From: Luminiphilus syltensis NOR5-1B
GTDB lineage: Bacteria; Pseudomonadota; Gammaproteobacteria; Pseudomonadales; Halieaceae
Assembly (NCBI RefSeq): GCF_000158175.1
Contig: NZ_DS999411.1
Span: 3,062,749-3,126,748 of the forward strand
DNA: 64,000 nt
Direction of reading: 5' to 3'
Positions 2,123-16,856 of this stretch are shown piece by piece. The translations under genes and the position numbers were made by a program. Positions within the stretch are counted from its first letter, which is position 1; each line of letters opens with the position of its first letter. The notes below the pieces were generated by a model. That model was given only the letters and a program-made list of their open reading frames with translations. It searched no databases and was not told the origin of the DNA.

Positions 2123-2689
2123 GTGAGCGATACGTTTGCTGCAGGAAAGTCAGTTGACGCCGTTCAATGCGACCGACGGCAGTTCCTGCGAAGCGGTACC
2201 GCACTGGGGCTGTTTCTTGTCGCTGGAACCTGGGTCGCCTTAACACCGGCGCAGGCTCGAGAGAAGAAATTCACAGCACAGGTCCTGACCAGCAGCCAGA
2301 TCGGCGCTTGTGAACAACTGGGCGATGCACTGGTTCCCGGGGCTGCAGTGGCGGGAATCGCCGCCTATATCGACAGCCAGCTGGCGAAAGGAACCGACTC
2401 GCTTTTGATGGCGCGCTATCTGGGTGCACCACCCAATGTCCAGCCCGGCTTTTATGGCGCGGCGTTAGACAGTGCCGTATCAGCTTTGGACGCGGCAAAG
2501 GGTGACGTCGAGAGCGTGCTCGACGCTATGGGCAGCGATTCGATTGAAGGCTGGCAGGGACCACCGGCCAGCTTTTTTTCATTTCTGCTTCGCGCCGATG
2601 CACTCGATGTGGTCTACGGCACCGAGAAGGGCTTCGCCGAGCTGGCTATTCCCTATATGGCGCATATCCGGCCCGAGGAGCGCTGGTAA
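2123..2689 (+). CDS. Tat-targeted gluconate 2-dehydrogenase subunit 3-like protein
   Basis: Small non-catalytic subunit expected to escort a GMC flavoprotein to the periplasm. GTG start with a GAGG ribosome site about 8 bases upstream. A twin-arginine signal (R18-R19 followed by QFL, then a hydrophobic stretch ending in AQA near residue 45) is clear. The 188-residue length and alpha-helical composition fit the gluconate 2-dehydrogenase subunit 3 family (PF13618), though I judge this by pattern only. Its stop overlaps the start of the GMC oxidoreductase by one base (TAATG), so the two are probably translationally coupled. The GMC protein has no signal peptide of its own, which suits a hitch-hiker Tat export model. 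Confidence 0.75.
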   Translation: MSDTFAAGKSVDAVQCDRRQFLRSGTALGLFLVAGTWVALTPAQAREKKFTAQVLTSSQIGACEQLGDALVPGAAVAGIAAYIDSQLAKGTDSLLMARYLGAPPNVQPGFYGAALDSAVSALDAAKGDVESVLDAMGSDSIEGWQGPPASFFSFLLRADALDVVYGTEKGFAELAIPYMAHIRPEERW

Positions 2690-4239
2690 TGGATACCCAA
2701 TTCGATACGGTAATTGTCGGCGCCGGCGCTGCGGGTCTGTTGATGGCGACTCGCCTTGCCGAGGCCGGGCAGAACGTCGCTGTTCTCGAAGCGGGACCCG
2801 AACGCAAGCTCAATGATCTGGTGAGCTCCCAGATCTGGGCCCGAAAACTCAAATGGGCGGATACATCGGTTGCCGAAGCCGGTAATCATGCGATCGGTCA
2901 CGCCTTTAATTCCGGCAGCGGGACTGGGGGGTCTGCGGTACACCACTATGGAGTATGGCTGCGCCTCAGGGAGAACGATTTCAGTGTGGCCAGCGATCAC
3001 GGCGTCGGTCTCGACTGGCCCATCGATTACGACACCCTGAGACCCCACTATGATCGGGTCCAGCGTGAAATCGGAATCAGTGGCGATGCGGAAGCTGAGA
3101 TCGGACGCCCTCCGGGCGATCCCTACCCGCTCCCTCCCCTGCCCGTATTTTCCCAGGGTCGGGTATTGCAAAAAGGATTTGAGAAAGCCGGTCTTACAGC
3201 AATGCCGGTGCCGATGGCGATTAACAGCCAACCCTATCAGGGTCGACGCGCCTGCCTCTACGACGGCTGGTGTGACGCCGGCTGCCCCATTGGTGCCCTT
3301 GCCAACCCACTGGCTGTGTGGCTGCCACGTGCGCAAGCCGCGGGTATTACGCTCTTACACAACGCCAAAGTCGTGCGGGTACTCCGCAGCAGCACCAAGC
3401 AATCCCGTATCACCGGCGTCGATTATTTGTCAGGGGGTGAAACCCATACCATCAAGGCGCGCGATATTGTGATCGCAGCGTTCACCGTCCAAAGCACCCG
3501 AATTCTGCTCAACTCCAAAACCGACTCACTGCCAGCACCAGGTAATCGCGAGGATCAACTGGGCCGCTACCTCACCACGCACCCGGCGGCAACAGTCTTC
3601 GGTCTGTTCGAGGAAGAGACGCTGCCACATCAGGGTGTCACCGGCGGACAGCTGTTGTGCCACGATCACTACGCAGAGAAAGATCAGGGCGATGCCTTTG
3701 GGTCTTCCCAGTGGATCATCGCCAATGCGATCAAACCGAATGACCTTCTCGGTTACGGCACGAGTCGCCCCGATATACGCGGACCGGCGCTAAAGCCCTG
3801 GCTCGAGCGCGCGGCTCGACACCTCGGCAATATGACCCTGGTAACCGAGGATATTGCCCAGGCCGACAACCGAATTACCCTCTCAGAGAATCGTGACGCC
3901 GATGGCGTGCCGGGCGTGAGCACAATACATAACCTGCGGCCGGAGACCATCGCGCTGTGGGAGCGACGCGTTAAGGAGGGCAAAAAATTATTCGAGCTGG
4001 CGGGCGCTGATGAGGTCTGGAACGGACCACGCGCGCCCATGCACATCATGGGCGGTACGGTAATGGGCAATGACGAATCGGCCTCGGTCACAGACCATAT
4101 GGGCCGGGTGCACGACACCGATAATCTTTATGTCGCGGGGCCCAGCCTGTTCCCATCCACGGGCGCGGTAAACCCCACATTCACGCTATCGGCATTGGCG
4201 TCACGGCAGGCCGACCATTTAATCAGAAAGTACTCGTGA
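2689..4239 (+). CDS. GMC-family FAD dehydrogenase with a cysteine motif
   Basis: FAD-dependent alcohol or sugar dehydrogenase of the glucose-methanol-choline superfamily, 516 residues. The N-terminal FAD-binding GAGAAG sits at residues 11-16. The C-terminal catalytic region has HIMGG and then NPTFT, supplying the usual His/Asn pair. A C-x5-C-x3-C motif (C189, C195, C199) resembles the iron-sulfur cysteines of membrane-type fructose or FAD-glucose dehydrogenase large subunits, so electrons may leave through a cluster. It overlaps the Tat small subunit by one base and probably forms an exported complex with it. Likely role: oxidation of a primary alcohol of the imported compound before CoA activation. 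The substrate is unknown, and no cytochrome subunit is adjacent. Confidence 0.85.
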   Translation: MDTQFDTVIVGAGAAGLLMATRLAEAGQNVAVLEAGPERKLNDLVSSQIWARKLKWADTSVAEAGNHAIGHAFNSGSGTGGSAVHHYGVWLRLRENDFSVASDHGVGLDWPIDYDTLRPHYDRVQREIGISGDAEAEIGRPPGDPYPLPPLPVFSQGRVLQKGFEKAGLTAMPVPMAINSQPYQGRRACLYDGWCDAGCPIGALANPLAVWLPRAQAAGITLLHNAKVVRVLRSSTKQSRITGVDYLSGGETHTIKARDIVIAAFTVQSTRILLNSKTDSLPAPGNREDQLGRYLTTHPAATVFGLFEEETLPHQGVTGGQLLCHDHYAEKDQGDAFGSSQWIIANAIKPNDLLGYGTSRPDIRGPALKPWLERAARHLGNMTLVTEDIAQADNRITLSENRDADGVPGVSTIHNLRPETIALWERRVKEGKKLFELAGADEVWNGPRAPMHIMGGTVMGNDESASVTDHMGRVHDTDNLYVAGPSLFPSTGAVNPTFTLSALASRQADHLIRKYS

Positions 4240-4356: not shown

Positions 4357-6447
4357 ATGTCTGTTGTGACTTACCACCTCAAAGATGCCATTGGTGTTAT
4401 CACCATCGATAACCCCCCTGTAAACGCCATGTCACATGCCGTGCGTTCGGGTCTGGTCGACGCCCTGGATACCGCTGCTGAAGATGATTCGCAGGCATTG
4501 CTGATTATTTGCAAAGGAAGAACGTTTATTGCCGGGGCGGATATTTCCGAGTTCGGCAAACCCCCGAAGTCACCCACACTACGCGATATGCTCGATATGC
4601 TTGACTCGCATCCGAAGCTTACCGTGGCTGCAATTCATGGCACCGCCCTCGGTGGCGGCTTCGAGACGGCACTGTGCTGTAATTATCGCTGTGCACTCGA
4701 CACAGCGAAGGTCGGTCTGCCTGAAGTGAAACTCGGGCTTTTACCGGGCGCCGGTGGCACCCAGCGAACCCCCCGACTCGCGGGCGCGGCCGATGCCATC
4801 ACGCTGATAACCCAGGGCAACCCGATGCCCGCAGAACAGGCATTGACCAGCGGCCTGATTGACCAGGTGGTTCAAGGTGATCTTCTGGCGGGCGCGGTCG
4901 ACTACGTGCATCGGCTCATAGCGGAGGACGCACCGCGACGACGGGCGCGCGACCTGCCCTTCTCACTCAGCGATGAAGACCGGGAGGCCATCGCCAGTGC
5001 GCGCAAGTCGCTGGCTAAAAAGACGCGCGGTGAGCACGCACCTCAACGCATTCTCGACTGCATCGAGGCCGCGGCTACCCTCGACTTCAATTCAGGGCTT
5101 GCCCGGGAACGAGAACTATTTGATGCCTGTATGACCGATCCCCAGTCTGCGGCGATGCGCCATATGTTTTTCGCCGAGCGCCAGGCAGCGAAAATTCAGG
5201 GAATGGACCCATCGGTTGCGCCGAGGGACATTGGCTCGGTGGGTATTATCGGTGCCGGCACCATGGGCGGAGGCATCGCCATGTGTTTCGCCCAGGCCGG
5301 GATTCCGGTGACCCTGCTCGATATGAATAGTGATGCCGTAACGGCCGGGCTCGACCGTATACGAAAAAACTACGCCATCAGCGTCAAGCGCGGGCGATTT
5401 TCAGAGGAACAGGTGAATGCCATAATGGCCAACATCGAGGGCTCTTCAGATTACGCGGATCTCGCCGAGACCGATCTTGTTATCGAGGCGGTATTCGAGA
5501 ACCTGGCAGTGAAACAGGACGTTTTTCGCTCCCTTGATTCGGTGTGTAAAGCGGACGCTATTCTGGCCAGCAATACGTCATACCAGAGTATTGATGACAT
5601 CGCCGCGGTGACCTCAAGGCCTCAATCTGTGTTGGGTACGCACTTTTTCAGTCCGGCGAACGTGATGAAACTCCTCGAAGTCGTTCGCGGGGCGCAGACG
5701 GACGATGAGATCATTGCCACGGCAATGGCGGTGGGTAAGAAAATCGGGAAAGTGCCCGTACTGGCCGGCATGTGTTACGGCTTTATCGGCAATCGCATGT
5801 TGCGCAGCTATGGACGCGAGGCACAACTCTGCCTTATCGAAGGTGCTACACCTGCGCAGATTGACGGTGCCATGGAGCGCTGGGGTATGGCCATGGGGCC
5901 TATCGCAGTGGGTGACCTCGCCGGGCTGGACATCGGCTATAAGGCGCGCGAGCAGCTCACCCCCGAGCAAAAAGGCAAACCAGCGAGCTACATCGTTGCT
6001 GACAGGCTCGTGGAAATGGGCCGACTGGGACAAAAATCCGGCGCCGGCTATTATCAATACGACCCTGAGACACGTGCACGGATCGAAGACCCCTCGGTGA
6101 TTGAGCTCGCAGCGCAGTGCGCGGCAGAGCTCGGCATAAAACAACGCTCAATCACCGACGAGGAGATTGTCGATCGATTAACCCTCGCTCTCGCCAATGA
6201 AGGTGCGCGTATTCTCGAGGAAGGTATCGCCCAACGCGCCAGTGATATCGATGTCGTTTATTGTTTTGGCTACGGTTTTCCCCGCCATCGAGGCGGGCCA
6301 ATGTGGACTATCGAAGCACGCGGCTTAGACAATGCGGTACAGCGAATGAAAGCCCTCGGCAATTCCCTCGACGCCGACAACTGGCAGGTGGCGCCACTAT
6401 TGCAACAGCTCGCCGAGTCCGGTGAAAGCCTCAAGGACTGGCAGTAG
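4357..6447 (+). CDS. bifunctional enoyl-CoA hydratase / 3-hydroxyacyl-CoA dehydrogenase
   Basis: Cytoplasmic FadB-type beta-oxidation enzyme, 696 residues. The N-terminal crotonase domain keeps both acid residues (in GGGFETAL and in PEVKLGLLPGAGG). The NAD-binding 3-hydroxyacyl-CoA dehydrogenase domain starts near residue 290 with IGAGTMGGGIA and has the HFFSP catalytic histidine motif. A C-terminal 3HCDH repeat ends the protein. It lies 117 bases after the GMC gene and 3 bases before the acyl-CoA ligase. This context suggests side-chain trimming of an aryl-CoA or alkyl-CoA rather than general fatty-acid oxidation, for which a second FadB-like protein is encoded at 29099-31246. Confidence 0.92.
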   Translation: MSVVTYHLKDAIGVITIDNPPVNAMSHAVRSGLVDALDTAAEDDSQALLIICKGRTFIAGADISEFGKPPKSPTLRDMLDMLDSHPKLTVAAIHGTALGGGFETALCCNYRCALDTAKVGLPEVKLGLLPGAGGTQRTPRLAGAADAITLITQGNPMPAEQALTSGLIDQVVQGDLLAGAVDYVHRLIAEDAPRRRARDLPFSLSDEDREAIASARKSLAKKTRGEHAPQRILDCIEAAATLDFNSGLARERELFDACMTDPQSAAMRHMFFAERQAAKIQGMDPSVAPRDIGSVGIIGAGTMGGGIAMCFAQAGIPVTLLDMNSDAVTAGLDRIRKNYAISVKRGRFSEEQVNAIMANIEGSSDYADLAETDLVIEAVFENLAVKQDVFRSLDSVCKADAILASNTSYQSIDDIAAVTSRPQSVLGTHFFSPANVMKLLEVVRGAQTDDEIIATAMAVGKKIGKVPVLAGMCYGFIGNRMLRSYGREAQLCLIEGATPAQIDGAMERWGMAMGPIAVGDLAGLDIGYKAREQLTPEQKGKPASYIVADRLVEMGRLGQKSGAGYYQYDPETRARIEDPSVIELAAQCAAELGIKQRSITDEEIVDRLTLALANEGARILEEGIAQRASDIDVVYCFGYGFPRHRGGPMWTIEARGLDNAVQRMKALGNSLDADNWQVAPLLQQLAESGESLKDWQ

Positions 6448-6450
6448 ACG

Positions 6451-8076
6451 ATGTCGACTGAACCCAACAGCCCCCGCGAGATACTGGCGACTACCGCAAA
6501 GCACTTTCCCGATCACGACGGCCTGCACATTCCGATGACCGCCTGCAGCCATTATGCGGATACCGCGATTACACTGGATTACCGGCAACTCGATCAGGCG
6601 GTCAGTACAGCGACGACGCAATGGGCGGCGAGCGGCATCAATGGTCGTGTCGCACTCATGCTCGAAAACCGACCGGACTTTTTTGTCCAGTGGCTGGCGC
6701 TCAATGCTCTCGGGGTGAGCGTCATTCCACTCAACCACGAAATGCCCGATGAAGAGATCCCCTACTACCTTGAGCACGGTGATGCGGTCGCGGTTTGCGC
6801 ACTGGCCGAGCATCGCGGCCGGCTTGAACGTATCTGTGCCCAACTGCCACAGTCTTTACCCGTGGTGACACCAGAAGCGGTGGCTACGTTGAACCTCGCC
6901 ACCGGCATCGATCCGCACTCCAGGCACAGTGGGCCGGATCAGGAATGCGCCCTGCTCTACACTTCTGGTAGTACCGGCAAACCCAAAGGCTGCATTCTCA
7001 GTAATGACTATTTTGTGGAGCAGGCCAAGTGGTACGCCAATCTCGATGGCCTGGTGCAGCTGCGTGAAGGTGTCGAGCGACTACTGACACCCCTTCCCCT
7101 GAGTCATATGAATGCCATGTCGGTCTCCGCGATGGCGATGTTCTACACCGCTGGATGCCTGATTCAGCTTGACCGTTTTCATCCGCGAAGCTGGTGGGAA
7201 AGTGTTCGTTCCTCCGGTGCGACAGCCTTGCATTATCTCGGCGTACTCCCGGCCATTTTGCTCGAACTTCCCGAGGCACCCGATGATGATGTGGGTGATC
7301 AGGTGCGGTTTGGCTTCGGCGCCGGAGTAAACCCCAAGCACCATGCGCGTTTTGAACAACGCTTCGGCTTCCCGCTGCTGGAGGCATGGGCAATGACCGA
7401 ATGCGGCGCCGGTGGGGCGATTATTGCCAATCACGAACCGCGACATGTGGGTGAATGCTGCTTTGGTCGACCTCCTGAAACACTGGATTGGCAACTGGTC
7501 GATGAACAGCGACAACCGGTGGAGCGTTCCCAGCCCGGTGAGCTCCGGGTGCGGGCGGCGGGCGCCAATCCTGAGAAAGGTTATTTCTCCGGTTACCTGA
7601 AAAATCCATCGGCAACCGCTGAAGCCTGGACCGATGGCTGGCTGAACACCGGCGATATCGCTGCAGAGTTGCCCGATGGCTCGCTGAAGTTTGTCGACCG
7701 ACGAAAGAATGTTATTCGCCGCTCCGGGGAAAATATCTCAGCGCTCGAGGTGGAAGCCGCACTGGTGGAGCATCCGTCAATCAGCGCCGTCATCGTCTGC
7801 CCGGTACCCGATGATTTGCGCGGCGACGAGGTCGCGGCCTGCATTACGCTGACGGAACAAGCAGAGCACACGCTTTCCCGGGCAGAGGACATCCAGCGCG
7901 TCGCATTGGAACGGCTGGTTTATTTCAAAGCGCCGGGTTGGATTGTGTTCTGTGACTCGTTGCCCATGACCGCGGCGAACAAACCCAAACGAGGCGACAT
8001 CAAGGTGCTTGCCCGCGAAGCGATCGACTCGGGCGCAGCGTTTGATCTTCGTTCGAACAAGAAACGGATCAAATAA
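6451..8076 (+). CDS. acyl-/aryl-CoA ligase (class I adenylate-forming enzyme)
   Basis: ATP-dependent CoA ligase of 541 residues that activates a carboxylic acid. The P-loop YTSGSTGKPKG lies near residues 169-179, the A8 hinge region reads GWLNTGDIA followed by DRRKNVI, and the A10 lysine is in AANKPKRGDIK. It begins 3 bases after the hydratase/dehydrogenase gene and its stop overlaps the next ATG (TAATG). By position it corresponds to the ligase IpfF of the Sphingomonas ibuprofen pathway, which primes arylacetic acids for ring dioxygenation. Orthology is inferred from gene context only. Substrate range, aromatic or aliphatic, cannot be read from the sequence by eye. Confidence 0.9.
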   Translation: MSTEPNSPREILATTAKHFPDHDGLHIPMTACSHYADTAITLDYRQLDQAVSTATTQWAASGINGRVALMLENRPDFFVQWLALNALGVSVIPLNHEMPDEEIPYYLEHGDAVAVCALAEHRGRLERICAQLPQSLPVVTPEAVATLNLATGIDPHSRHSGPDQECALLYTSGSTGKPKGCILSNDYFVEQAKWYANLDGLVQLREGVERLLTPLPLSHMNAMSVSAMAMFYTAGCLIQLDRFHPRSWWESVRSSGATALHYLGVLPAILLELPEAPDDDVGDQVRFGFGAGVNPKHHARFEQRFGFPLLEAWAMTECGAGGAIIANHEPRHVGECCFGRPPETLDWQLVDEQRQPVERSQPGELRVRAAGANPEKGYFSGYLKNPSATAEAWTDGWLNTGDIAAELPDGSLKFVDRRKNVIRRSGENISALEVEAALVEHPSISAVIVCPVPDDLRGDEVAACITLTEQAEHTLSRAEDIQRVALERLVYFKAPGWIVFCDSLPMTAANKPKRGDIKVLAREAIDSGAAFDLRSNKKRIK

Positions 8077-9260
8077 TGAGCAGTTATCAAGGTGTTGCCC
8101 TGGTATCGCCGATCAGCTTTGGCTACCAGAAGCAAAGCCCCCGAAGCGCTGCTTTTTTTATTGGTTCGGTATTACGAGAGCTGATAACGACCTCTGCTAT
8201 CGATAAGGCCGAGATTGATGGGCTTGCCGTTTCAAGTTTCTCCTTGGGCGTGGACTCCAGCATTGCGCTGGTGGAGCACTTTGGTCTCGAAGTTCGCTGG
8301 CTGGAACAGATCAACGTCGGCGGCGTGTCCGGACTACTCGCCCTGCGCCGGGCGGCGCGAGCCATTGAAGCCGGGGACGCCGGGATTATTGCCTGTATCG
8401 GTGGTGATACCGCACACCACCGCGGCTTTGAGGCAACCGCGGCCAACTTCTCCAGTTTCAGTATCGACGGGGCCTTCCCCTACGGCGCCGGCGGCCCCAA
8501 TGCGGCCTTCAGTCTGATCACCGCAAACTATATGAAGCGCTACGGCGCGACCCGAGAAGATTTCGCGAGAATCTGTCTCGACCAGCGCTACAACGCCAAT
8601 CATTACCCCATGGCCCTACTCGGCCACAAACCGCTAACGCTCGATGCCTATCTCGGTGCGCGGCCAATAGCAGGTCCGGTACATCTCTTTGACTGTGTCA
8701 TGCCCTGCGCGGGCGGTGAGGGCTTTCTGGTCATGAGTACCGAGCGTGCACGAGCGCTGCAATTGCCCTACGCCGAGCTGCGAGTGGCCGATGAATTGCA
8801 CAACGCCCATCGCAAGGATCCGGTGCAGGATCGCTCAGGCTGGACAACGTATATCGACGACCTATACCAGCAGAGCGGGTTTGGGCCCGAGGACATGCAG
8901 TTTCTACAAACCTATGACGATTACCCCATGATCAGCATGATGCAAATGGAAGACCTCGGTTTTTGCCGCAAAGGTGAGGGCCCGGCGTTTGTCCAGCGTA
9001 CCGATATGCGCTTCGATGGCAGTGGCAGCGCGCCGGGAAAACTACCCCATAACACCAGCGGAGGTCAGCTGTCCTGCGGGCAGGCGGGCTCCGCCGCCGG
9101 CTACCTCGGCCTTACCGAGAGCATTCGTCAACTCACCGACCGGGCGGGTAGCAACCAGATCCTGAATGTACACCGGGGGCTGGTAAGCGGTTACGGGATG
9201 GTCAATTACGACCGTGGTCTCTGCAGTGCCGCGGCCATTTTGAGTCGAGGTCAGTCATGA
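8076..9260 (+). CDS. SCPx/Ltp2-type thiolase-fold protein lacking thiolase catalytic residues
   Basis: Thiolase superfamily protein of 394 residues, of the sterol-carrier-protein-X or lipid-transfer (Ltp) type. The position of the acylated cysteine in true thiolases is glycine here (INVGGVSG, about residue 78). The GHP histidine motif is replaced by CGQAG (about residue 328), and the C-terminal catalytic cysteine region reads LVSGYGMVNY. A normal thiolytic mechanism is therefore unlikely. Ltp2 of steroid side-chain degradation is a retro-aldolase that needs a DUF35 partner, and IpfD of Sphingomonas Ibu-2 is an SCPx thiolase needed for aryl deacylation. A DUF35 gene follows with a 4-base overlap, so the same partnership is inferred. 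Confidence 0.88.
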   Translation: MSSYQGVALVSPISFGYQKQSPRSAAFFIGSVLRELITTSAIDKAEIDGLAVSSFSLGVDSSIALVEHFGLEVRWLEQINVGGVSGLLALRRAARAIEAGDAGIIACIGGDTAHHRGFEATAANFSSFSIDGAFPYGAGGPNAAFSLITANYMKRYGATREDFARICLDQRYNANHYPMALLGHKPLTLDAYLGARPIAGPVHLFDCVMPCAGGEGFLVMSTERARALQLPYAELRVADELHNAHRKDPVQDRSGWTTYIDDLYQQSGFGPEDMQFLQTYDDYPMISMMQMEDLGFCRKGEGPAFVQRTDMRFDGSGSAPGKLPHNTSGGQLSCGQAGSAAGYLGLTESIRQLTDRAGSNQILNVHRGLVSGYGMVNYDRGLCSAAAILSRGQS

Positions 9261-9802
9261 CTATTGCTGAGAAAATGCGGCAAAGGCTGCGGCTCAATCG
9301 GCCCTCACTGCGTGCGCGAGCCCGGCCACCCAAGCAGCGAACACCCCTGGGTCAGAACTTCAGCGCGGCCAACCTGCCTGTGGCACTGTCGATGCCGGTT
9401 TGTGATACCTGCGGCCATGTACAGTACCCGCCGACTGAGCTTTGCGGCGAATGTCTCGCGGACACCCTGGTATTCAGGGAAACCGATACCCAGGGCACAT
9501 TGCTCGCCAAGACCGAATTACACCATAGCGTGTGGGAATTCTTTAAACGCCGCATGTCGAAAGCGCCCTGGCCCATGGGGTCGGTGAAGCTCGATGCGGG
9601 CCCCGTGGTACTGGCCCATCTGGCCGACAACACATTGGCACCGGGGCAATCCGTGCAGGTGTTCAGTCATACCGACGCATCGCGATCCTCGGTATTGATT
9701 GCCTGCGACGTTTCACAGCCGGTGGGTCGGCGCGAAGTTCGGCGCGCACTGACTGAAGCCACGGGACTGACGCAAATCGCCGTTCGCGAAAAGGGAATCT
9801 GA
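9257..9802 (+). CDS. DUF35 zinc-ribbon/OB-fold partner protein
   Basis: Protein of 181 residues with a rubredoxin-like zinc ribbon (C49-x2-C52 and C63-x2-C66) followed by an OB-fold, the arrangement of DUF35 acyl-CoA-associated proteins. The first 40 residues are basic and look disordered. The ATGA overlap with the thiolase-fold gene points to a stoichiometric complex. Known parallels are the DUF35 domain of ChsH2 with the aldolase Ltp2, archaeal DUF35 with acetoacetyl-CoA thiolase/HMG-CoA synthase, and IpfE with IpfD. The likely function is to bind or present the CoA substrate to the thiolase-fold subunit. No catalytic activity of its own is expected. Confidence 0.85.
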   Translation: MTIAEKMRQRLRLNRPSLRARARPPKQRTPLGQNFSAANLPVALSMPVCDTCGHVQYPPTELCGECLADTLVFRETDTQGTLLAKTELHHSVWEFFKRRMSKAPWPMGSVKLDAGPVVLAHLADNTLAPGQSVQVFSHTDASRSSVLIACDVSQPVGRREVRRALTEATGLTQIAVREKGI

Positions 9803-9805
9803 ATC

Positions 9806-10537
9806 ATGGACAATCATCAGCACATTGTGGTTACCGGGGGCAGTACGGGAATTGGTGCTGCAATCTGCGCGCAGTTTCTGGAAAAAGGGGTCGGCGTTAT
9901 CAATCTGGCTCGACGGCCTTTGGAACTTAAACACCCTGCATTGACCAACATCACCATTGACCTCAGCGATCGCGAGGCGACCCGCAGGGTCGCTGCCAAA
10001 ATCGCCGACCGATTCGAAATTACAGGTCTTGTTCATAATGCAGGGCTTATCAGGGCCGATCTGGTCGAGGCGGTAGATCTGGCAGACCTCGACTACCTCA
10101 CCCAGGTGCATCTGGGCGCGGCAATTTCACTGACCCAGGCGGTGCTGCCGGGAATGAAGGCGCGTCATTTCGGGCGTATCATTCTGATTACCTCAAGAGC
10201 CGCGCTAGGCCTGCAAACCCGAACCAGCTATAGCGCTACCAAAGCAGGAATGATGGCCATGGCACGAACCTGGGCACTGGAGCTCGGCGGTGACGGGATC
10301 ACTGTGAATACTGTGGCACCGGGGCCCATTGCCGACACCGAGATGTTCACCTCGGTGACCCCCGTCGATAGCCCCAAGGCCGACGCGCTGGCTGCAAGCA
10401 TTCCCGTTAAGCGACTGGGTAGATCCAGCGATGTAGCGGCAGCCGTTACGTTTCTTGCGGGCGCTGACGCGGGCTTTATCACCGGACAGACCTTAATGGT
10501 GTGTGGCGGCGCCAGCCTCGGATCCTTGGCACTCTAA
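9806..10537 (+). CDS. short-chain dehydrogenase/reductase
   Basis: Classical SDR of 243 residues. The cofactor-binding TGGSTGIG spans residues 10-17, NAG is at 78-80, and the catalytic Ser130, Tyr142 and Lys146 are all present (TS at 129-130, YSATK at 142-146). It lies 3 bases after the DUF35 gene and 20 bases before the Rieske alpha subunit. In that position it could be the cis-dihydrodiol dehydrogenase that rearomatises a ring dioxygenation product, or a 3-hydroxyacyl-CoA/alcohol dehydrogenase for the side chain. The known ipf system is not described as needing such an enzyme, so its step is open. Confidence 0.88.
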   Translation: MDNHQHIVVTGGSTGIGAAICAQFLEKGVGVINLARRPLELKHPALTNITIDLSDREATRRVAAKIADRFEITGLVHNAGLIRADLVEAVDLADLDYLTQVHLGAAISLTQAVLPGMKARHFGRIILITSRAALGLQTRTSYSATKAGMMAMARTWALELGGDGITVNTVAPGPIADTEMFTSVTPVDSPKADALAASIPVKRLGRSSDVAAAVTFLAGADAGFITGQTLMVCGGASLGSLAL

Positions 10538-10557
10538 ACAAGGGAGTAAACCTGATA

Positions 10558-11889
10558 ATGACGATGATCCCCGACAGAAACTTCGACCACTTGGTGCAAC
10601 CGACACGCCTGCACCGAGATCTTTATATCGATCCTGAATTATTCGAACTCGAAATGTCCAGAATCTGGGGGCAGGCCTGGATATTTATTGGACATGAATC
10701 CCAGATTCCGGAGCCGGGCGACTACTTCACCACCAACATTGATCACAAAACGCCAGTGGTCATGATTCGCGATACCGACGGTTCGATTAAGGTGCTTCAC
10801 AATCGCTGCGGACACAAGGGTGCCCGTCTCGTGGTGGAGCGCCAGGGCAAGGTTCGCGGCGCTTTCAACTGCAGTTATCACGGCTGGCGCTTTCGCTTTG
10901 ACGGTAGCCTGCTCGCCGTACCCAACGAAAAAGGCTACGCCGATACGGGTTTTGACAGCTCGGACCCCTGTTATGGCATGCGGCCGCTGGCCCAGGTCGA
11001 TCACTATCGTGGGTTTGTCTTTGCCACGCTCTCCGAGAAGGCCCCCGCCCTGCTGGACTGGATGGGCGGCGCCAGGGACTGCTTTGACAACCTCTGCGAT
11101 CGGGCGCCGGAGGGCGAGGTAGAGGTTGCGGGGGGTGTGACCCGCTACGAGCATCAATGCAACTGGAAATTCATTCTCGAAAATCTCAACGACACGATGC
11201 ACCCCATGGTGGTTCATCAGTCGGTGGTGCAGGCGGCGAAGCAATTCATCAGCACACTGCCCGAAGATGCCGTGCAGCAACGCAGTGAAGCCGAGATTAT
11301 TCCTCCCTTCGGCGCCAGCTACGAGACCTTCGAGAACTCGGGAATAACGGGTTTCAATTACGGACACCATTACGATGGCGGGAAAACCAGTATCCACGCG
11401 GATTATTCGGTAATGCCCGAGTACCACGAGGCCATGGTCGCCGCCTACGGCGAGGAACGGACCCGGGAAATTTATGCCTTCAATACCCATAATGTGTGCT
11501 TTTATCCATCACTCACTATCAAGTGCGCCGTACAGAATATTCGTGTGATCCGGCCAATCGCGGTCGATCGTTTCATTGTTGAGACGTGGTCATTCCGGCT
11601 CAAGGGTGCACCTGACGCCATGCTGCAGCGCACCCTGCTCTATTCGCGACTCATTAACTCGGCGATGGGAATGGTGGGACCCGACGACCTAGAGGTCTAC
11701 CGCCGCGCCCAGGAGGGACACCAGTCGCCCGCGGGTGAATGGATAGAGTTTCATCGCGGTTATGGAACTGACCAGCAGCTTGATGATCGAATCGTCGGCG
11801 GGGGCACCTCCGATCTCGATATGCGCACCCAGTACCGCGCCTGGAAGGATTACATGCAAGGCGCCATTTTTGATGGGGTAGACCAATGA
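10558..11889 (+). CDS. Rieske non-heme iron aromatic ring-hydroxylating oxygenase, alpha subunit
   Basis: Catalytic large subunit of a ring-hydroxylating dioxygenase. I chose the ATG at 10558 because AGGGAG lies about 12 bases upstream; an upstream in-frame extension would overlap the SDR. The protein is then 443 residues. The Rieske [2Fe-2S] ligands are C84, H86, C105 and H108. The mononuclear iron ligands H215 and H220 sit in NDTMHPMVVH, with bridging D212, and the usual C-terminal acidic ligand is probably in PDDLEVY. The beta subunit follows with an ATGA overlap. No ferredoxin or reductase gene is found nearby, so electrons must come from proteins encoded elsewhere. Possible IpfA counterpart acting on an aryl-CoA. 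Confidence 0.93.
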   Translation: MTMIPDRNFDHLVQPTRLHRDLYIDPELFELEMSRIWGQAWIFIGHESQIPEPGDYFTTNIDHKTPVVMIRDTDGSIKVLHNRCGHKGARLVVERQGKVRGAFNCSYHGWRFRFDGSLLAVPNEKGYADTGFDSSDPCYGMRPLAQVDHYRGFVFATLSEKAPALLDWMGGARDCFDNLCDRAPEGEVEVAGGVTRYEHQCNWKFILENLNDTMHPMVVHQSVVQAAKQFISTLPEDAVQQRSEAEIIPPFGASYETFENSGITGFNYGHHYDGGKTSIHADYSVMPEYHEAMVAAYGEERTREIYAFNTHNVCFYPSLTIKCAVQNIRVIRPIAVDRFIVETWSFRLKGAPDAMLQRTLLYSRLINSAMGMVGPDDLEVYRRAQEGHQSPAGEWIEFHRGYGTDQQLDDRIVGGGTSDLDMRTQYRAWKDYMQGAIFDGVDQ

Positions 11890-12359
11890 CACAACGGCAA
11901 TCTATTGAAGATTTTCTCTATGATGAAGCCGCATTACTCGATCGGCCGGATCTTGATCGATGGATGACCCTGTTCACCGCCGACGGCTTCTATTGGATGC
12001 CCGCTGTCGAGGACCAGGTCGATCCACTCAACCATATCTCCCATGTCTATGACGACCGGGTGATGATGGAGATTCGCCGACGGAACTTTGTACACCCACG
12101 GGCGTCCTCCAAGGATCACAGGATCCGATGCAGCCACGTTATCGGAAACGTGCGTCTGATCCAGGAACACGACGATGGCAGCTTGGAGGTCGGATCCAAT
12201 CAGCATGTTGTGGTCGACTACCGTGATGAGCAACGGGTATATGCCTACCGGGGTATCCATTTACTACATCCGGATGGTGATACGTTTCTTATCAAGAGCA
12301 AGCGCGTAAATCTGATCAATCCCGAGGCTCCCCAGCGCTCTCTCATTGTCTACCTGTAG
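11886..12359 (+). CDS. aromatic ring-hydroxylating dioxygenase, beta subunit
   Basis: Small structural subunit of 157 residues with the NTF2-like cone fold of Rieske dioxygenase beta subunits. The N-terminus (IEDFLYDEAALLDRPDLDRW) and the C-terminal KSKRVNLI region are typical of the family. The gene overlaps the alpha subunit by 4 bases (ATGA), indicating co-translation into an alpha-beta oligomer. It ends the first block of the catabolic region. The next 110 bases contain a predicted promoter and operator before hpaE, so transcription may end or be re-initiated there. Confidence 0.9.
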   Translation: MTQRQSIEDFLYDEAALLDRPDLDRWMTLFTADGFYWMPAVEDQVDPLNHISHVYDDRVMMEIRRRNFVHPRASSKDHRIRCSHVIGNVRLIQEHDDGSLEVGSNQHVVVDYRDEQRVYAYRGIHLLHPDGDTFLIKSKRVNLINPEAPQRSLIVYL

Positions 12360-12387
12360 GTCGCGGTATCCGCTCGCAACGCACTGG

Positions 12388-12415
12388 TTGATGTTCTCGC
12401 CCATTTAGGTAACAT
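12388..12415 (+). promoter_or_regulatory. predicted sigma-70-like promoter for the hpa operon
   Basis: TTGATG at 12388-12393 and TAACAT at 12410-12415, separated by 16 bases, each match four of six consensus positions. They lie in the only sizeable gap (110 bases) between the dioxygenase genes and the hpa genes. The -10 element falls inside a perfect palindrome, the geometry of repressor-controlled promoters. Read by eye only. Confidence 0.45.
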
Positions 12416-12422
12416 GTTACCT
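12407..12422. promoter_or_regulatory. perfect 16-bp palindrome, candidate repressor operator
   Basis: AGGTAACATGTTACCT is identical to its own reverse complement over all 16 bases. It lies 48 bases before the hpaE start and covers the predicted -10 box. Palindromes of this size are typical sites of dimeric TetR-, MarR- or GntR-type regulators. In enterobacteria the hpa meta-cleavage operon is repressed by the MarR-type HpaR, but no regulator gene is present in this region, so the cognate protein is unknown. Confidence 0.6.
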
Positions 12423-12469
12423 TTCTTGCTCGGGGATGATTCCCGAGAGCCAACAGCGAGCGACCACCA

Positions 12470-13996
12470 ATGGCACAGCAGAGCGACTTCCACGACAATC
12501 AACAACGCGCCGGCGACTATCTCAAGCGTTTCGCAACGACGGTCACCGGCCATTACATCGGCGGATCGTGGGTACCAACCGACGGCGCGGCCAGCTTCGA
12601 CAACCTCAGCCCCGCAAACAACCAATCCCTGGGGGCCGTCGTCGCGGGTACCGAGGCCGACGTTGATGCGGCCTGCCAGGCCGCCGAGGACGCATTTGGT
12701 GAATGGGCTGCAATGCCCGGCCAGGCGCGCAAAAAGCTGCTCAACCATTTTGCGGACCTGATCGAAGCCCGAGCCGATGAAATCGCGCTGGTAGAATCCA
12801 GCGATTGCGGACAGGCGATTCGTTATATGAAGCAGGCTGCCATACGCGGCGCCGCTAACTTTCGCTTCTTTGCCGACAAAGCACCCGAAGCCCGTAACGG
12901 GCAATCGCTAATGCAGCCCGAGCACACCAATTTAACGATCCGCTCGCCCATTGGGCCGGTAGGCGTTATAACGCCCTGGAACACGCCGTTTATGCTGGCC
13001 ACGTGGAAGATTGCACCCGCATTGGCAGCGGGCTGTACGATCGTCCATAAACCTGCAGAACTGAGCCCCCTGTCAGCGACGCTGCTCGCCGAAATTAGCG
13101 AGGAGGCCGGGATTCCACCGGGCGTCTGGAATATGGTCCATGGCTTTGGTGAGACGGTGGGCAAGCGATTGAGCGAACATCCGGCGATCAAGGCGGTTTC
13201 TCTTGTTGGCGAAACCAGCACCGGCAGCCACATCATGCGCCAGGGTGCGGATACGCTAAAGCGCATTCATTTGGAGCTCGGTGGCAAAAACCCCATTATT
13301 GTTTTCGACGATGCCGACTTCGATCGCGCGCTTGATGCCGCAGTATTCATGCTCTACAGCCTTAATGGGCAGCGCTGCACATCAAGCTCCCGATTGCTGA
13401 TCCAGAGTGGTATCCGGGATAAGTTTCTCAGCGCACTCAAGGAGCGAGTGGCCAATCTGAAAGTGGGGCACCCACTCGATCCCGCCTCGGAGGTGGGTCC
13501 GTTGGTGCATAAGGAACACTTCGAGAAGGTCATGGGTTATATGGAGGCCGCGCGGGACGGTGGAGCGACCATCGCCGTTGGCGGTAACCGGATCACGTCG
13601 ATGGGTAATGGCAACTACGTTGAGCCCACGCTATTTGTCGATGCAGACAACACCATGCGTGTCGCCCGAGAAGAAATTTTTGGTCCTGTTTTGACCGCGA
13701 TCAGTTTTGATACCGAGGAACAGGCCATAGCGATAGCTAATGACACCGAGTATGGGTTGGCCGGTTATATCTGGACGGGCGATACCGGGAGAGCGATGCG
13801 CATGGCCCACGCGGTGGAAGCAGGAATGTTATGGATTAACAGCGAGAACAACCGCAACCTGCCCTCTCCTTTCGGCGGCTTCAAAATGAGCGGTATTGGT
13901 CGAGATGGCGGAGACTACAGTTTTGAATTTTACATGGAGACCAAAAATGTGTGTATCGCCCACGATACGCACAGCGTCCCCGTGATCGGTCGTTAG
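12470..13996 (+). CDS. hpaE: 5-carboxymethyl-2-hydroxymuconate semialdehyde dehydrogenase
   Basis: NAD-dependent aldehyde dehydrogenase of 508 residues that oxidises the ring-fission semialdehyde of the homoprotocatechuate pathway. The nucleophile is Cys303 in NGQRCTSSSR and the catalytic Glu region is LELGGKNP. The C-terminal part (GREGGEYSFE-like region, METKNVCI and a final histidine-rich tail) closely matches E. coli HpaE as I recall it, apart from a longer N-terminus of about 20 residues. The following hpaD begins 12 bases after the stop. Immediately upstream lies a palindromic operator candidate, so hpaE is probably the first gene of its own transcript. Confidence 0.9.
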   Translation: MAQQSDFHDNQQRAGDYLKRFATTVTGHYIGGSWVPTDGAASFDNLSPANNQSLGAVVAGTEADVDAACQAAEDAFGEWAAMPGQARKKLLNHFADLIEARADEIALVESSDCGQAIRYMKQAAIRGAANFRFFADKAPEARNGQSLMQPEHTNLTIRSPIGPVGVITPWNTPFMLATWKIAPALAAGCTIVHKPAELSPLSATLLAEISEEAGIPPGVWNMVHGFGETVGKRLSEHPAIKAVSLVGETSTGSHIMRQGADTLKRIHLELGGKNPIIVFDDADFDRALDAAVFMLYSLNGQRCTSSSRLLIQSGIRDKFLSALKERVANLKVGHPLDPASEVGPLVHKEHFEKVMGYMEAARDGGATIAVGGNRITSMGNGNYVEPTLFVDADNTMRVAREEIFGPVLTAISFDTEEQAIAIANDTEYGLAGYIWTGDTGRAMRMAHAVEAGMLWINSENNRNLPSPFGGFKMSGIGRDGGDYSFEFYMETKNVCIAHDTHSVPVIGR

Positions 13997-14008
13997 GAGG
14001 TAATCAAA

Positions 14009-14860
14009 ATGGGTGAAATTGCGCTGGCGGCAAAAATCACACACGTCCCGTCCATGTATTTGTCAGAGATGGACGGTCCCCACAAAGGCTGTCGCGATGC
14101 AGCTATCAATGGGCACAAGGAAATCTCAAGACGCTGTCGCGAATTGGACGTCGATACGATCGTGGTGTTCGATACGCACTGGTTGGTTAACTCGGGTTAC
14201 CACATTAACAATGCACCCCACTTCAAGGGTGTTTATACCAGCAACGAGTTACCGCACTTCATCAAGAACATGCCCTACGAATACGATGGCAACCCCGCGT
14301 TGGGCGCCTTAATCGCCGATGCGGCGACAGCGGCCGGGATACCGACCCGCGCCCACAGTGACACTTCGATGGGGCTAGAGTACGGCACACTGGTTCCCAT
14401 GCGCTATATGAACGCCGATCGCCACTTCAAAGTCGTGTCGGTGTCAGCGATGTGCCAGGTGCATGACCTGCAGGACAGTGGCCGTCTGGGCGCCGCTCTG
14501 CGCGAAGCGGTGGAAGCGGATTACGACGGCAAAATAGCGGTGTTTGCATCGGGTTCGCTATCCCACCGATTCGCACAAAATGGTGTTTCCGAAGAGTACC
14601 TCTTCAAGACGTGGTCACCCATGCTTGAACACATGGATCGCGAGGTCGTTCGTATGTGGGAGCGCGGTGAGTGGAAGGACTTTGTAGAGATGCTTCCCGA
14701 ATACGCCGAAAAATGTGATGGCGAGGGTTTCATGCACGACACCGCGATGCTGCTGGGCGTCATGGGATGGGACCAGTATCAGGGCAAGGTCGAGGTACTA
14801 ACGCCCTACTTTGGCAGCTCAGGTACCGGGCAGATCAACGCTATCTTCCCGCTGCAATAA
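14009..14860 (+). CDS. hpaD: 3,4-dihydroxyphenylacetate 2,3-dioxygenase
   Basis: Extradiol (type III, LigB-fold) iron dioxygenase that opens homoprotocatechuate to 5-carboxymethyl-2-hydroxymuconate semialdehyde. It is 283 residues, the length of E. coli HpaD. It shares long recognisable stretches with it, including AAKITHVPSMYLSE, VFDTHWLVNS, VYTSNELPHFI, EYGTLVPMRYMN and the end SSGTGQ-NA-FPL. A strong AGGAGGT ribosome site lies 7 bases before the ATG. The product identity fixes the ring-cleavage substrate of the cluster as homoprotocatechuate or a close analogue. hpaF starts 1 base after the stop. Confidence 0.95.
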   Translation: MGEIALAAKITHVPSMYLSEMDGPHKGCRDAAINGHKEISRRCRELDVDTIVVFDTHWLVNSGYHINNAPHFKGVYTSNELPHFIKNMPYEYDGNPALGALIADAATAAGIPTRAHSDTSMGLEYGTLVPMRYMNADRHFKVVSVSAMCQVHDLQDSGRLGAALREAVEADYDGKIAVFASGSLSHRFAQNGVSEEYLFKTWSPMLEHMDREVVRMWERGEWKDFVEMLPEYAEKCDGEGFMHDTAMLLGVMGWDQYQGKVEVLTPYFGSSGTGQINAIFPLQ

Positions 14861-14861
14861 T

Positions 14862-15227
14862 ATGCCACATCTCATTGTCGACTATTCGGCCAATCTGCCC
14901 GAGCCCGAGCTGCAACTCGATTCCTTGCTCGACAATCTGGTGCACACCGCTATTGGCACCGGATTGTTCCCCGAGTCAGGAATGCGGGCGCGGGCGATAC
15001 GCTGCGACCACTATCGGGTCGGCAACGGCGATCCGGACAACGGCTTTATCAATGTCAGTATGCGTGTCGGCGCCGGTCGTGATCTTGCTGACCTGCAGTC
15101 CGCAGGGGAGCAGATTTTTGAAACGCTGAAGCAACACACGGCCGCTCTGATGCAGCGTCAAAAAGTGGCGCTCTCCTGCGAAATGCGTGAGCTGGCACCG
15201 GTAAAATTCAATTTTAAAAATCTCTAA
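14862..15227 (+). CDS. hpaF: 5-carboxymethyl-2-hydroxymuconate delta-isomerase
   Basis: Small tautomerase-superfamily isomerase that converts 5-carboxymethyl-2-hydroxymuconate to 5-oxopent-3-ene-1,2,5-tricarboxylate. I chose the ATG at 14862, giving MPHLIVDYS and 121 residues. Pro1 after Met removal is the catalytic base of this family. Longer in-frame starts would run into hpaD and bury the proline. The gene sits 1 base after the hpaD stop and 42 bases before hpaH, consistent with one operon. Confidence 0.92.
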   Translation: MPHLIVDYSANLPEPELQLDSLLDNLVHTAIGTGLFPESGMRARAIRCDHYRVGNGDPDNGFINVSMRVGAGRDLADLQSAGEQIFETLKQHTAALMQRQKVALSCEMRELAPVKFNFKNL

Positions 15228-15269
15228 CCCATCGGTTGATAACCCACCCCTACCCCTGCAGAGGCAACC

Positions 15270-16076
15270 ATGCTTGACCAGCAACAGATAAAAGCAGCAG
15301 CTGACGCGCTGTATACCGCCGAGAAAACGCGCCAGCAGATTCAGCCCATCACCCTGACCTATCCCAACATGGATATGGACGATGCCTATGCGGTGCAACG
15401 GGCGTGGGTCGATAAAAAAATCAGCGATGACGGCGCTGCGATCACCGGCTACAAGATTGGCCTCACCTCCCGGGCCATGCAAATGGCAATGAACATCACC
15501 ACCCCCGACTTTGGGATTCTGCTCGATGACATGCACTTCCCCAACAACAGCGACATACCAGCCGCTGATTTTCTGGATCCCCGTATCGAAGTCGAGTTGG
15601 GTTTTGTGCTCAAAAAACCGCTGTTCGGCGAGTCGGTCACGGTTGATCAGGTCCTCGATGCAACGGATTACATTGTCCCTGCGCTGGAGCTAATCGCGGC
15701 GAGAAGTTTTCGGGTTGATCCGCAGTCGGGCTATACCAGAACCGTCTTCGATACTATTTCCGACAACGCCGCCAACGCCGGGTACATCGAGGGTGATGTC
15801 AGGGTGGCACCGGGCGACATCGATTTGCGCTGGGCCGGCGCCATCTGCTACCTCAATGGCGAGGTTGAGGAGACCGGGCTTGCCGCAGGGGTTTTGGACC
15901 ACCCGGCCAAGGGTATTTGCTGGGTCTGTAAACGCTTTGCACCCCATGGCATTGGTATTGAGCCCGGGCAGTTTATCCTCGCGGGCTCTTTCACCAGACC
16001 CATCGCGGTGAAACCGGGGGATAAAATCGTCTGCGATTATGGACCCCTTGGCGTCATCAACGCACAGTTCACTTAA
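15270..16076 (+). CDS. hpaH: 2-oxo-hept-4-ene-1,7-dioate hydratase
   Basis: Hydratase of the MhpD/HpaH branch of the fumarylacetoacetate hydrolase fold, 268 residues as in E. coli. It hydrates 2-oxohept-4-ene-1,7-dioate to 4-hydroxy-2-oxoheptane-1,7-dioate. Diagnostic stretches are GYKIGLTSRAMQ, DPRIEVELGFVL (metal-binding acids), ALELIAAR, VFDTISDNAANAG, AAGVLDHPA and GSFTRP. It follows hpaF directly and precedes hpaI by 12 bases. The decarboxylase/isomerase HpaG, which normally supplies its substrate, is not encoded beside it. Confidence 0.93.
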   Translation: MLDQQQIKAAADALYTAEKTRQQIQPITLTYPNMDMDDAYAVQRAWVDKKISDDGAAITGYKIGLTSRAMQMAMNITTPDFGILLDDMHFPNNSDIPAADFLDPRIEVELGFVLKKPLFGESVTVDQVLDATDYIVPALELIAARSFRVDPQSGYTRTVFDTISDNAANAGYIEGDVRVAPGDIDLRWAGAICYLNGEVEETGLAAGVLDHPAKGICWVCKRFAPHGIGIEPGQFILAGSFTRPIAVKPGDKIVCDYGPLGVINAQFT

Positions 16077-16088
16077 GGAACCGAGGCT

Positions 16089-16856
16089 ATGGAGCTGAAG
16101 CAAAACCAGGTTTTACGGGACAGCAGCCTCGATCGTGTCCTCTATGGCTGCTGGCTGGGTATTCCCGACAGCAATGTTGCAGAGATGGCGGCGTCAGCGG
16201 GCTTCGACTGGCTCCTGATCGATCACGAGCACGCCCCTTTCGAGCTTGCTGATGTGATGGCCCATTTACGGGCACTCGCACCCTACCCCGTGGCCCCTGT
16301 CGTGCGGCCCGTCAATAATGACCCGGCGCTGCTGAAGAAGTTTCTGGAAATGGGTGTGCACACCTTTGTCATACCGATGATTGATACCGCTGATCAAGCG
16401 GCCGCCTGCGTTCGCGCACTGAACTATCCGCCTAAGGGAGATCGCGGGGTCGGTAGCTCTCTGGCAAGGGCTGCCCACTGGGGTCAGGTGGACGGTTATC
16501 TCGAAAACGCCAATGACGAAATATGTCTTATTGTGCAGGCTGAAACCGTCACCGCCATTCGCAATCTCGACGCGATTCTTGAAGTCGATGGCGTCGATGG
16601 GGTCTTCCTCGGCCCCTCTGATCTGGCTGCCTCCATGGGCCATATCGGCCAGAACACCCATCCCGATGTTGTTGAATCCGTAGCTAATTCACTGGGCCGC
16701 ATTCGCGAGAAGGGTCGTATAGCGGGAGTACTCGCCACCGACGCCGATATGATTGCACGCTATCGCTCGGCGGGCGCCAATTTTGTCGGTGTATCGGCGG
16801 ATACCCTGCTGGTGGGTAAAGCGTTTCGTGACTGCGCCGGACAATTCAAGGACTAG
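16089..16856 (+). CDS. hpaI: 4-hydroxy-2-oxoheptane-1,7-dioate aldolase
   Basis: Class II metal-dependent pyruvate aldolase of the HpcH/HpaI family, 255 residues. It splits the final intermediate into pyruvate and succinate semialdehyde. Recognisable segments are GFDWLLIDHEHAP (catalytic His region), VVRPVNNDP, GDRGVGSSLARA (Arg region), LIVQAET and GVDGVFLGPSDLA (metal site). It is the last gene of the hpa operon. Its stop overlaps the stop of the convergent DUF2452-like gene by 4 bases (CTAG). I saw no terminator hairpin between the two. Confidence 0.93.
   Translation: MELKQNQVLRDSSLDRVLYGCWLGIPDSNVAEMAASAGFDWLLIDHEHAPFELADVMAHLRALAPYPVAPVVRPVNNDPALLKKFLEMGVHTFVIPMIDTADQAAACVRALNYPPKGDRGVGSSLARAAHWGQVDGYLENANDEICLIVQAETVTAIRNLDAILEVDGVDGVFLGPSDLAASMGHIGQNTHPDVVESVANSLGRIREKGRIAGVLATDADMIARYRSAGANFVGVSADTLLVGKAFRDCAGQFKD

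Follow-up and report, generated by a model that had tools for sequence, protein, structure and literature searches.

Our analysis of a 64,000-nt stretch of the genome of Luminiphilus syltensis NOR5-1B (the window in what follows; bases 3062749–3126748 of a genome recorded as one contig of 3,261,541 bases) suggests that the run of genes at window positions 6451–16856 very probably comprises two separate units, namely an iad-type set for the degradation of the auxin indole-3-acetate (IAA) at 6451–12359 and a homoprotocatechuate meta-cleavage (hpa) operon at 12470–16856. An initial annotation of this DNA had listed eleven genes here on one strand, and all eleven were found, on the + strand and in the order stated, by open reading frame (ORF) analysis and Pfam/NCBIfam profile scans. 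That annotation had joined them into a single pathway, in which an ipf-type set would remove the side chain of an aryl acid and pass the resulting catechol, homoprotocatechuate, to the hpa enzymes.

We compared the first six proteins with two reference sets. For ipf we used plasmid pIBU218 of Rhizorhabdus wittichii MPO218 (accession via PMC9195938), with ipf letters assigned by gene class and order; for iad we used a Sulfitobacter plasmid cluster, called iad from its gene content, which runs MarR, reductase, Rieske alpha, Rieske beta, ligase, thiolase, an SDR-annotated protein with a DUF35 front half, cyclase and SDR, that is, in D-E-F-G-H-I-J order. Identities are 34–54% to the Sulfitobacter cluster and 26–31% to the ipf-plasmid proteins, and the iad value is the higher for each of the five proteins matched on the ipf plasmid, the sixth (the SDR) being unmatched there:

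6451–8076, + strand: IadF-like AMP-binding acyl-CoA ligase; 48% identity with the Sulfitobacter ligase across 529 amino acids (aa), 28% with its ipf counterpart across 376 aa
8076–9260, + strand: IadG-like thiolase-fold protein, with Thiolase_C_1 as its sole Pfam match; 54% with Sulfitobacter IadG, 30% with IpfD across 226 aa, 28% with a second pIBU218 thiolase
9257–9802, + strand: DUF35/ChsH2-like protein, counterpart of the N-terminal half of IadH (PF12172; PF01796 slightly below cut-off); 35% with the corresponding DUF35 half of the Sulfitobacter protein, 31% with a second OB-fold protein of pIBU218, no match to IpfE
9806–10537, + strand: IadJ-like SDR dehydrogenase; 50% with the SDR that ends the Sulfitobacter cluster
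10501–11889 (ORF), + strand: IadD-like Rieske oxygenase alpha, with kin in the Protein Data Bank (PDB; 9o71, 7yls/8h2t) and conserved pocket residues; 44% to iad, 29% to ipf
11886–12359, + strand: IadE-like Rieske beta (PF00866); 34% with Sulfitobacter IadE across 152 aa, 26% with IpfB across 105 aa

Matches to proteins of the IpfA, IpfB, IpfD and IpfF types were obtained at 26–30%, several of them over part of the length, but IpfE was not matched and orthology with the Ipf proteins did not hold.

The closest solved structures to the Rieske alpha protein are 9o71 (E 4.5e-134) and 7yls/8h2t (E 2.3e-132), the next best (3.2e-50) being about 80 orders of magnitude weaker. We take the 7yls/8h2t chain, although the entries do not bear that name, to be Variovorax IadD: all 14 residues given in the available passages of PMC10374108 occur in it at identical numbers, and it groups with three Variovorax loci at 100/100 in our Rieske tree. 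The same passages place Asn210, Leu211, His216, His221, Phe251, His311, Lys322, Arg329 and Tyr362 in the IAA pocket of Variovorax IadD. At all nine positions, at the four cluster ligands and at Asp377 the window protein has the same residue, whereas IpfA, in what is a distant alignment, departs at six of the nine (211 Asp, 251 gap, 311 Pro, 322 Gly, 329 Ile and 362 Asn). Conservation extends through the family: 71 sequences matched, of which 68 rows including the window were left once matches of 300 residues or fewer had been removed, three of them gapped at pocket columns, and the remaining 65 conserve every pocket position save 311 (63 His, 2 Gln) and 211 (34 Gln, 29 Leu, 2 Ile).

Phylogeny agrees with this assignment. 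Among the 44 rows of the thiolase-fold tree, 34 iad-type rows including the window form one clade (99/99), with IpfD and the outgroup rows outside it; in the Rieske tree (37 rows, one of 38 having been removed as too short), the window, Variovorax IadD and 27 others stand apart from IpfA (94/92). Clustering with unrelated families, for example steroid enzymes, had been named beforehand as evidence that would count against ipf membership; the set groups with auxin degradation and not with ipf, nor does it group with steroid enzymes. Every protein with a counterpart is closer to iad by identity, the Rieske alpha also by structure and pocket, with both trees in agreement, and the ipf assignment is withdrawn.

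The best-matching named loci of the thiolase-like gene belong to Luminiphilus and other Halieaceae. Other members of these families were considered and set aside: relatives' other thiolase-fold genes are at most 38% identical to the window protein outside the iad-type matches listed, with eight outgroup rows falling outside its clade, and the ten further Rieske matches in the same genome reach 28–34%. Two plasmid Rieske proteins (loci L041 and L042) fall inside the IadD-side group of the Rieske tree, neither with an adjacent thiolase or ligase match. One of these loci (L041:9009-14539, pCAR1.3) carries an IadD-like Rieske pair (45%) with a reductase, an isochorismatase-type hydrolase, an SDR and a dienelactone hydrolase, and no adjoining ligase or thiolase.

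An IadI-like cyclase gene lies at genome bases 3056048–3056821 on the minus strand, 5.9 kb before the window start, and its product is 78% identical to a relative's. Near it are genes of the IorA, IorB and RidA types, a MaoC-like gene, and genes for an acyl-CoA dehydrogenase, an enoyl-CoA hydratase and an SDR, together with a gene of the NCBIfam bifunctional salicylyl-CoA 5-hydroxylase/oxidoreductase family (the family call being made on a relative's copy). We take the latter to be a 2-aminobenzoyl-CoA monooxygenase/reductase, the 2-aminobenzoyl-CoA pathway being the presumed lower route. The closest structures to the cyclase are the isatin hydrolases 5nmp, 5nnb, 5nna and 4j0n (E 3e-99 to 5e-84), followed by an unnamed cyclase (2e-28) and a kynurenine formamidase (2e-7). 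It carries a GLAS motif and an HTGTHFD metal motif, and passages of PMC6117287 tie the GLAS motif and HTGTHFD-type metal-site spacing to isatin hydrolase; homologues of iorA and iorB are described in auxin loci in the part of PMC9613470 available. Within a set of 57 genomes of the genus (IadG at E <1e-150, HpaD at E <1e-160), IadI accompanies IadG in 10 of 11.

The conserved IAA pocket and the isatin hydrolase in the neighbourhood leave homoprotocatechuate unsupported as the product of the six-gene set, and make isatin and acetyl-CoA the likely products. The earlier expectation that the substrate would be a natural arylacetic acid survives, with IAA in that place by iad membership and pocket, and we likewise infer that the side chain would be released as an acyl-CoA.

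The thiolase-fold protein had been described as catalytically altered, and indeed V84 occupies the position of the nucleophilic Cys. This Cys is missing in all 83 family rows (Ala in 73, Val in 9, Ser in 1) and present in two outgroup rows; other outgroup rows, IpfD included, also lack it, so its loss is not special to iad. By sequence, the PDB relatives of this protein are 9myr and 6ok1, the latter presumably a steroid side-chain retro-aldolase complex of the Ltp2-ChsH2 type. Steroid retro-aldolases with Ltp2-ChsH2 chemistry pair a thiolase fold without the Cys with a DUF35 protein. The DUF35 protein of the window stands alone, with no SDR half, and among 78 loci scored for length (IadH being identified by gene order) the long form of IadH, DUF35 plus extension, occurs in 41 and the short form in 37, two of the 37 with unreliable lengths. 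The short form is that of every Halieaceae locus scored and of three Alcaligenes loci.

In the passages of PMC12633357 available, the Variovorax proteins are named by annotation, IadG as a ketothiolase and IadH as an alcohol dehydrogenase; a Cys-less thiolase fold and a DUF35-only IadH in many loci argue against such a mechanism. As dioxindole-3-acetyl-CoA belongs to the beta-hydroxyacyl-CoAs, its cleavage by a retro-aldol step would yield isatin and acetyl-CoA, and we think it rather probable, on these comparisons, that IadG and the DUF35 protein split the CoA ester in this way. A broader proposal is put forward tentatively, at a little short of even confidence: IadG and the DUF35 part of IadH may form a retro-aldolase pair that replaces the published ketothiolase and alcohol dehydrogenase, with the SDR-less Halieaceae form as the minimal version, and IorAB may then convert isatinate to 2-aminobenzoyl-CoA, so that marine bacteria would have a complete aerobic, CoA-linked route by which auxin enters central metabolism.

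The five genes that follow were identified correctly at the outset, in that HpaE, HpaD and HpaH exceed their NCBIfam equivalog cut-offs, HpaF matches the Pfam CHMI family and HpaI falls below its cut-off while having the HpaI family as its best match:

12407–12422, strand not applicable: perfect 16-base palindrome AGGTAACATGTTACCT, putative hpa operator
12470–13996, + strand: hpaE, 5-carboxymethyl-2-hydroxymuconate semialdehyde dehydrogenase (TIGR02299, 796.6 bits; cut-off 638.35)
14009–14860, + strand: hpaD, homoprotocatechuate 2,3-dioxygenase (TIGR02298, 468.7 bits; cut-off 315.95)
14811–15227 (ORF), + strand: hpaF, isomerase (PF02962, by Pfam scan only; relatives 121 aa)
15270–16076, + strand: hpaH, hydratase (TIGR02312, 393.4 bits; cut-off 351.5)
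16089–16856, + strand: hpaI, aldolase (TIGR02311, 309 bits; cut-off 368.8)

The description of the run as overlapping or minimally spaced save at one gap fits the listed ORFs, which are separated by -50 to +42 bases with the exception of 110 bases before hpaE. Judging from the lengths and alignments of relatives, Rieske alpha probably starts near 10558 and HpaF near 14862, downstream of the mechanical ORF starts, in which case two of the apparent overlaps vanish.

The palindrome lies within the 110-base gap, its core GTAACATGTTAC ending 49 bases 5' of hpaE. For comparison we took the hpa operons of ten of the 12 Luminiphilus genomes in which HpaD is strong, leaving out G034 and G052; two of the ten are near-identical. 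The 12-base core GTAACRTGTTAC is exact before hpaE in eight of these and differs by one base in the other two, and it is kept whatever gene lies farther upstream. Genome-wide, GTAACRYGTTAC occurs at three places and a reversed control pattern at one; the three sites are before hpaE, before an HpaG-like gene and before a TonB receptor gene that adjoins the HpaG-like gene. The palindrome is absent from the fetched iad stretches of relatives, including those that cover the region before the TonB gene. We propose from this distribution that 12407–12422 is the putative operator of the hpa operon; a joint iad/hpa operator was also considered and none was found, no copy of the 12-base core lying before an iad gene. 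In genome G009 the palindrome occurs twice (L174:6509 and 9353), once before hpaE and once near a short ORF with no assignment. Regulators of the PaaX-like and MarR-like types are encoded in the region.

HpaG carries out a step of homoprotocatechuate degradation, and the HpaG-like gene lies elsewhere, at about genome 3043246–3043974 (L179:18247-19060), split by 20 N and with the palindrome just upstream; a relative's copy scores below the HpaG cut-off. HpaB was not found by a PF03241 match in this genome and is over cut-off in 35 of the 57 genus genomes, so another source of homoprotocatechuate is needed here. Several other Luminiphilus genomes carry a VanA-like Rieske gene (L161:3522-4613, minus strand) beside the HpaG-like gene and divergent from hpaE, and in these relatives it could be a homovanillate demethylase that feeds the hpa enzymes. 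A homovanillate route in the genome studied here finds little in its favour, since the VanA-like matches, the only alternative source sought, are weak (best 26%, E 1e-9).

HpaD is present in 12 of the 57 genus genomes, and 10 of the 57 have both HpaD and IadG (Fisher p 1.6e-8, uncorrected for kinship or genome size). The two genes lie ~6 kb apart, in different arrangements, in G000 and G010, which puts direct adjacency at 2 of the 11 IadG-bearing genus genomes; they are ~37 kb apart in G016 and G003 and on different contigs in G002, G005, G007, G034, G050 and G052, where contig ends could hide neighbours, and G039 has IadG without HpaD. Among 89 genomes outside the genus (IadG at E <1e-147, HpaD at E <1e-60), IadG occurs in 11, four of which have HpaD, on a different contig in three and ~94 kb away in one; the other seven have no HpaD at E 1e-60. 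Also outside the genus, G071 has HpaD and a fragment of IadG. Scored by identity thresholds, the 80 named IadG loci (50 of which span at least 20 kb) include 52 with all six core genes, 50 with an IadI-like gene and one with hpaD. A synteny search for the combination, suggested by the initial annotation, therefore recovered it inside the genus, in two genomes, but at a single named locus and never outside the genus. Given that the hpa operon has its own palindrome and that adjacency is rare, the idea that the two halves form one pathway is not supported.

Several observations weigh against the reading of an intact iad set beside an independent hpa operon. In the thiolase-fold tree, IpfD and three further rows are long branches whose own placement is unsure; in the Rieske tree, the support of 94/92 is below the usual mark, and long branches lead to IpfA and to several outgroup rows. 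A single search of the genome with the Sulfitobacter reductase yielded no iadC-type gene (best E 7e-5), and another reductase may serve IadDE. IadI occurs also in eight genus genomes without IadG, so it is not exclusive to the IAA pathway. The gene of the 2-aminobenzoyl-CoA-monooxygenase type (L160:1458-3778, genome ~3046207–3048527) is divided between two open frames, which join near L160:2255, whereas two relatives carry it as a single frame of ~780–807 codons; the lower pathway may therefore be broken here, or the record may be wrong. The genome directly before the window reads N, and a palindrome could lie there, where the relatives have none. Finally, IadG and HpaD co-occur in the genus, so the two may still be linked in function.

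That co-occurrence makes a shared niche plausible, and perhaps the two pathways, though separate, are kept near each other for one niche such as the use of algal aromatic acids. This is compatible with our preferred explanation, and we regard it as a lesser possibility: it would account for joint presence in 10 of the 11 IadG genomes of the genus and for distances of ~6 kb in two genomes and ~37 kb in two more, but the genes are on different contigs in six other genus genomes, adjacency is not seen outside the genus, and kinship and genome size may by themselves account for the co-occurrence. Less probable by a good margin is that the Halieaceae set derives from iad and has moved to another indolic or aryl acid with its chemistry unchanged. 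The short DUF35 form, which could be taken as a sign of such a shift, is found also in three loci of Alcaligenes, a genus listed as iad-bearing in the passages of PMC9613470. The iadC gene that was not found, the missing SDR half of IadH and the association of the set with a TonB receptor, a GMC oxidoreductase and FadJ would suit a shifted substrate, but all nine pocket residues are conserved and IadI is retained in 10 of the 11 IadG genomes of the genus. Very improbable, lastly, is the route first proposed, in which an Ipf-like set strips a para-substituted arylacetic acid (benzene-1,4-diacetate, if the product is to be homoprotocatechuate itself) and the catechol is then broken down by HpaD to HpaI: the 110 bases between the halves, the genus-level co-occurrence, the two different adjacent arrangements and the need for a source of homoprotocatechuate without HpaB speak for it, but Ipf identities are low, the pocket is that for IAA while IpfA's differs, an isatin hydrolase is near by, the hpa palindrome is not common to iad, and hpaD is missing from seven of the 11 IadG genomes outside the genus and from all but one of the named loci.

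Starting from family membership, pocket residues, gene linkage and the palindrome, all of which can be read in the DNA, we favour two adjoining aromatic-acid units that would be separately controlled, the iad core and the hpa operon with its own predicted operator. For Variovorax, deletions, overexpression and isotope tracing place IadCDE first on IAA, then IadJ giving C10H9NO4, then IadF, IadG, IadH and IadI (passages of PMC12633357). In L. syltensis, IadDE would oxygenate the indole ring of IAA, the SDR IadJ would oxidise the hydrated product to dioxindole-3-acetate, and IadF would convert this to its CoA ester, which IadG and the DUF35 protein would cut to isatin and acetyl-CoA. IadI would then open isatin to isatinate, and isatinate would pass to anthranilate or 2-aminobenzoyl-CoA and on to the 2-aminobenzoyl-CoA-monooxygenase-type and beta-oxidation genes upstream; we infer this lower order, as we do the retro-aldol chemistry and the operator function.

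Compared with the iad locus of Variovorax paradoxus CL14, Bradyrhizobium japonicum, Alcaligenes and Achromobacter, the window has orthologues of IadD, IadE, IadF, IadG, IadJ and the DUF35 half of IadH in a single-strand block, with IadI, IorA and IorB in the neighbourhood and an identical IAA pocket. It differs in that no iadC was found in the genome, IadH lacks its SDR half, the gene order is different, IadI lies upstream on the other strand, and a TonB receptor, a GMC oxidoreductase and FadJ are in the block. With ipfABDEF of Sphingomonas Ibu-2 and R. wittichii MPO218 it shares protein classes and the splitting off of the acid side chain as an acyl-CoA, but besides the low identities and the divergent IpfA pocket no cyclase-type gene is annotated in 50 kb around ipf, and in the ipf pathway CoA activation comes first (PMC9195938, in the part available). 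The Cys-less thiolase fold with a DUF35 partner resembles retro-aldolases of the Ltp2-ChsH2 type, although identity is low and the proposed substrate here is an indolyl-acetyl-CoA. The hpa operon has HpaE, HpaD, HpaF, HpaH and HpaI in the same order as known meta-cleavage operons; unlike those, in this genome it comes with no HpaB match, an HpaG-like gene elsewhere and its own palindrome.

These results correct a tempting ipf assignment and place a largely complete auxin-degradation set in Luminiphilus and other Halieaceae. Halieaceae respond to phytoplankton blooms (PMC10100682), and algal auxin is a signal between alga and bacterium (PMC10805672), according to the abstracts of these papers. 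No report of IAA degradation in Luminiphilus was among the literature matches listed, and the place of the genus among the 221 genera with auxin loci was not established from the passages of PMC9613470; a literature search, with subscription journals mostly outside it, returned no paper on Luminiphilus and homoprotocatechuate together. What is mildly new is an iad locus from marine Halieaceae in which IadH is a lone DUF35 protein and for which no iadC was found. The interest comes chiefly from the hints that IadG and IadH are a retro-aldolase pair, which bear on auxin side-chain removal in the iad pathway, a step assigned from annotation in the 2025 Variovorax preprint (PMC12633357, in part).

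The + strand block extends to the left of 6451, with a 117-base gap 5' of FadJ:

148–2103, + strand: TonB-dependent receptor (PF00593)
2123–2689, + strand: g2, small protein with no Pfam match, adjoining the GMC gene wherever g2 occurs in Luminiphilus loci
2689–4239, + strand: GMC-type FAD oxidoreductase (PF05199, PF00732)
4357–6447, + strand: FadJ/FadB-like enoyl-CoA hydratase and 3-hydroxyacyl-CoA dehydrogenase, with scores that fall short of the FadJ and FadB equivalog cut-offs

Because a relative's alignment to the TonB receptor already starts at window base 1, the start of the gene lies upstream of the window; the run of N mentioned above (L160:13266-17999) ends at the base just before it. 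The FadJ/FadB-like protein may have a role in the lower pathway. This block of four precedes the iad ligase gene in the Luminiphilus loci L044, L046, L049 and L052 and not in L043. At the other end of the iad core, several Luminiphilus genomes have an acyl-CoA dehydrogenase gene 3' of Rieske beta (L163:7675-8874), in the place that hpaE occupies here.

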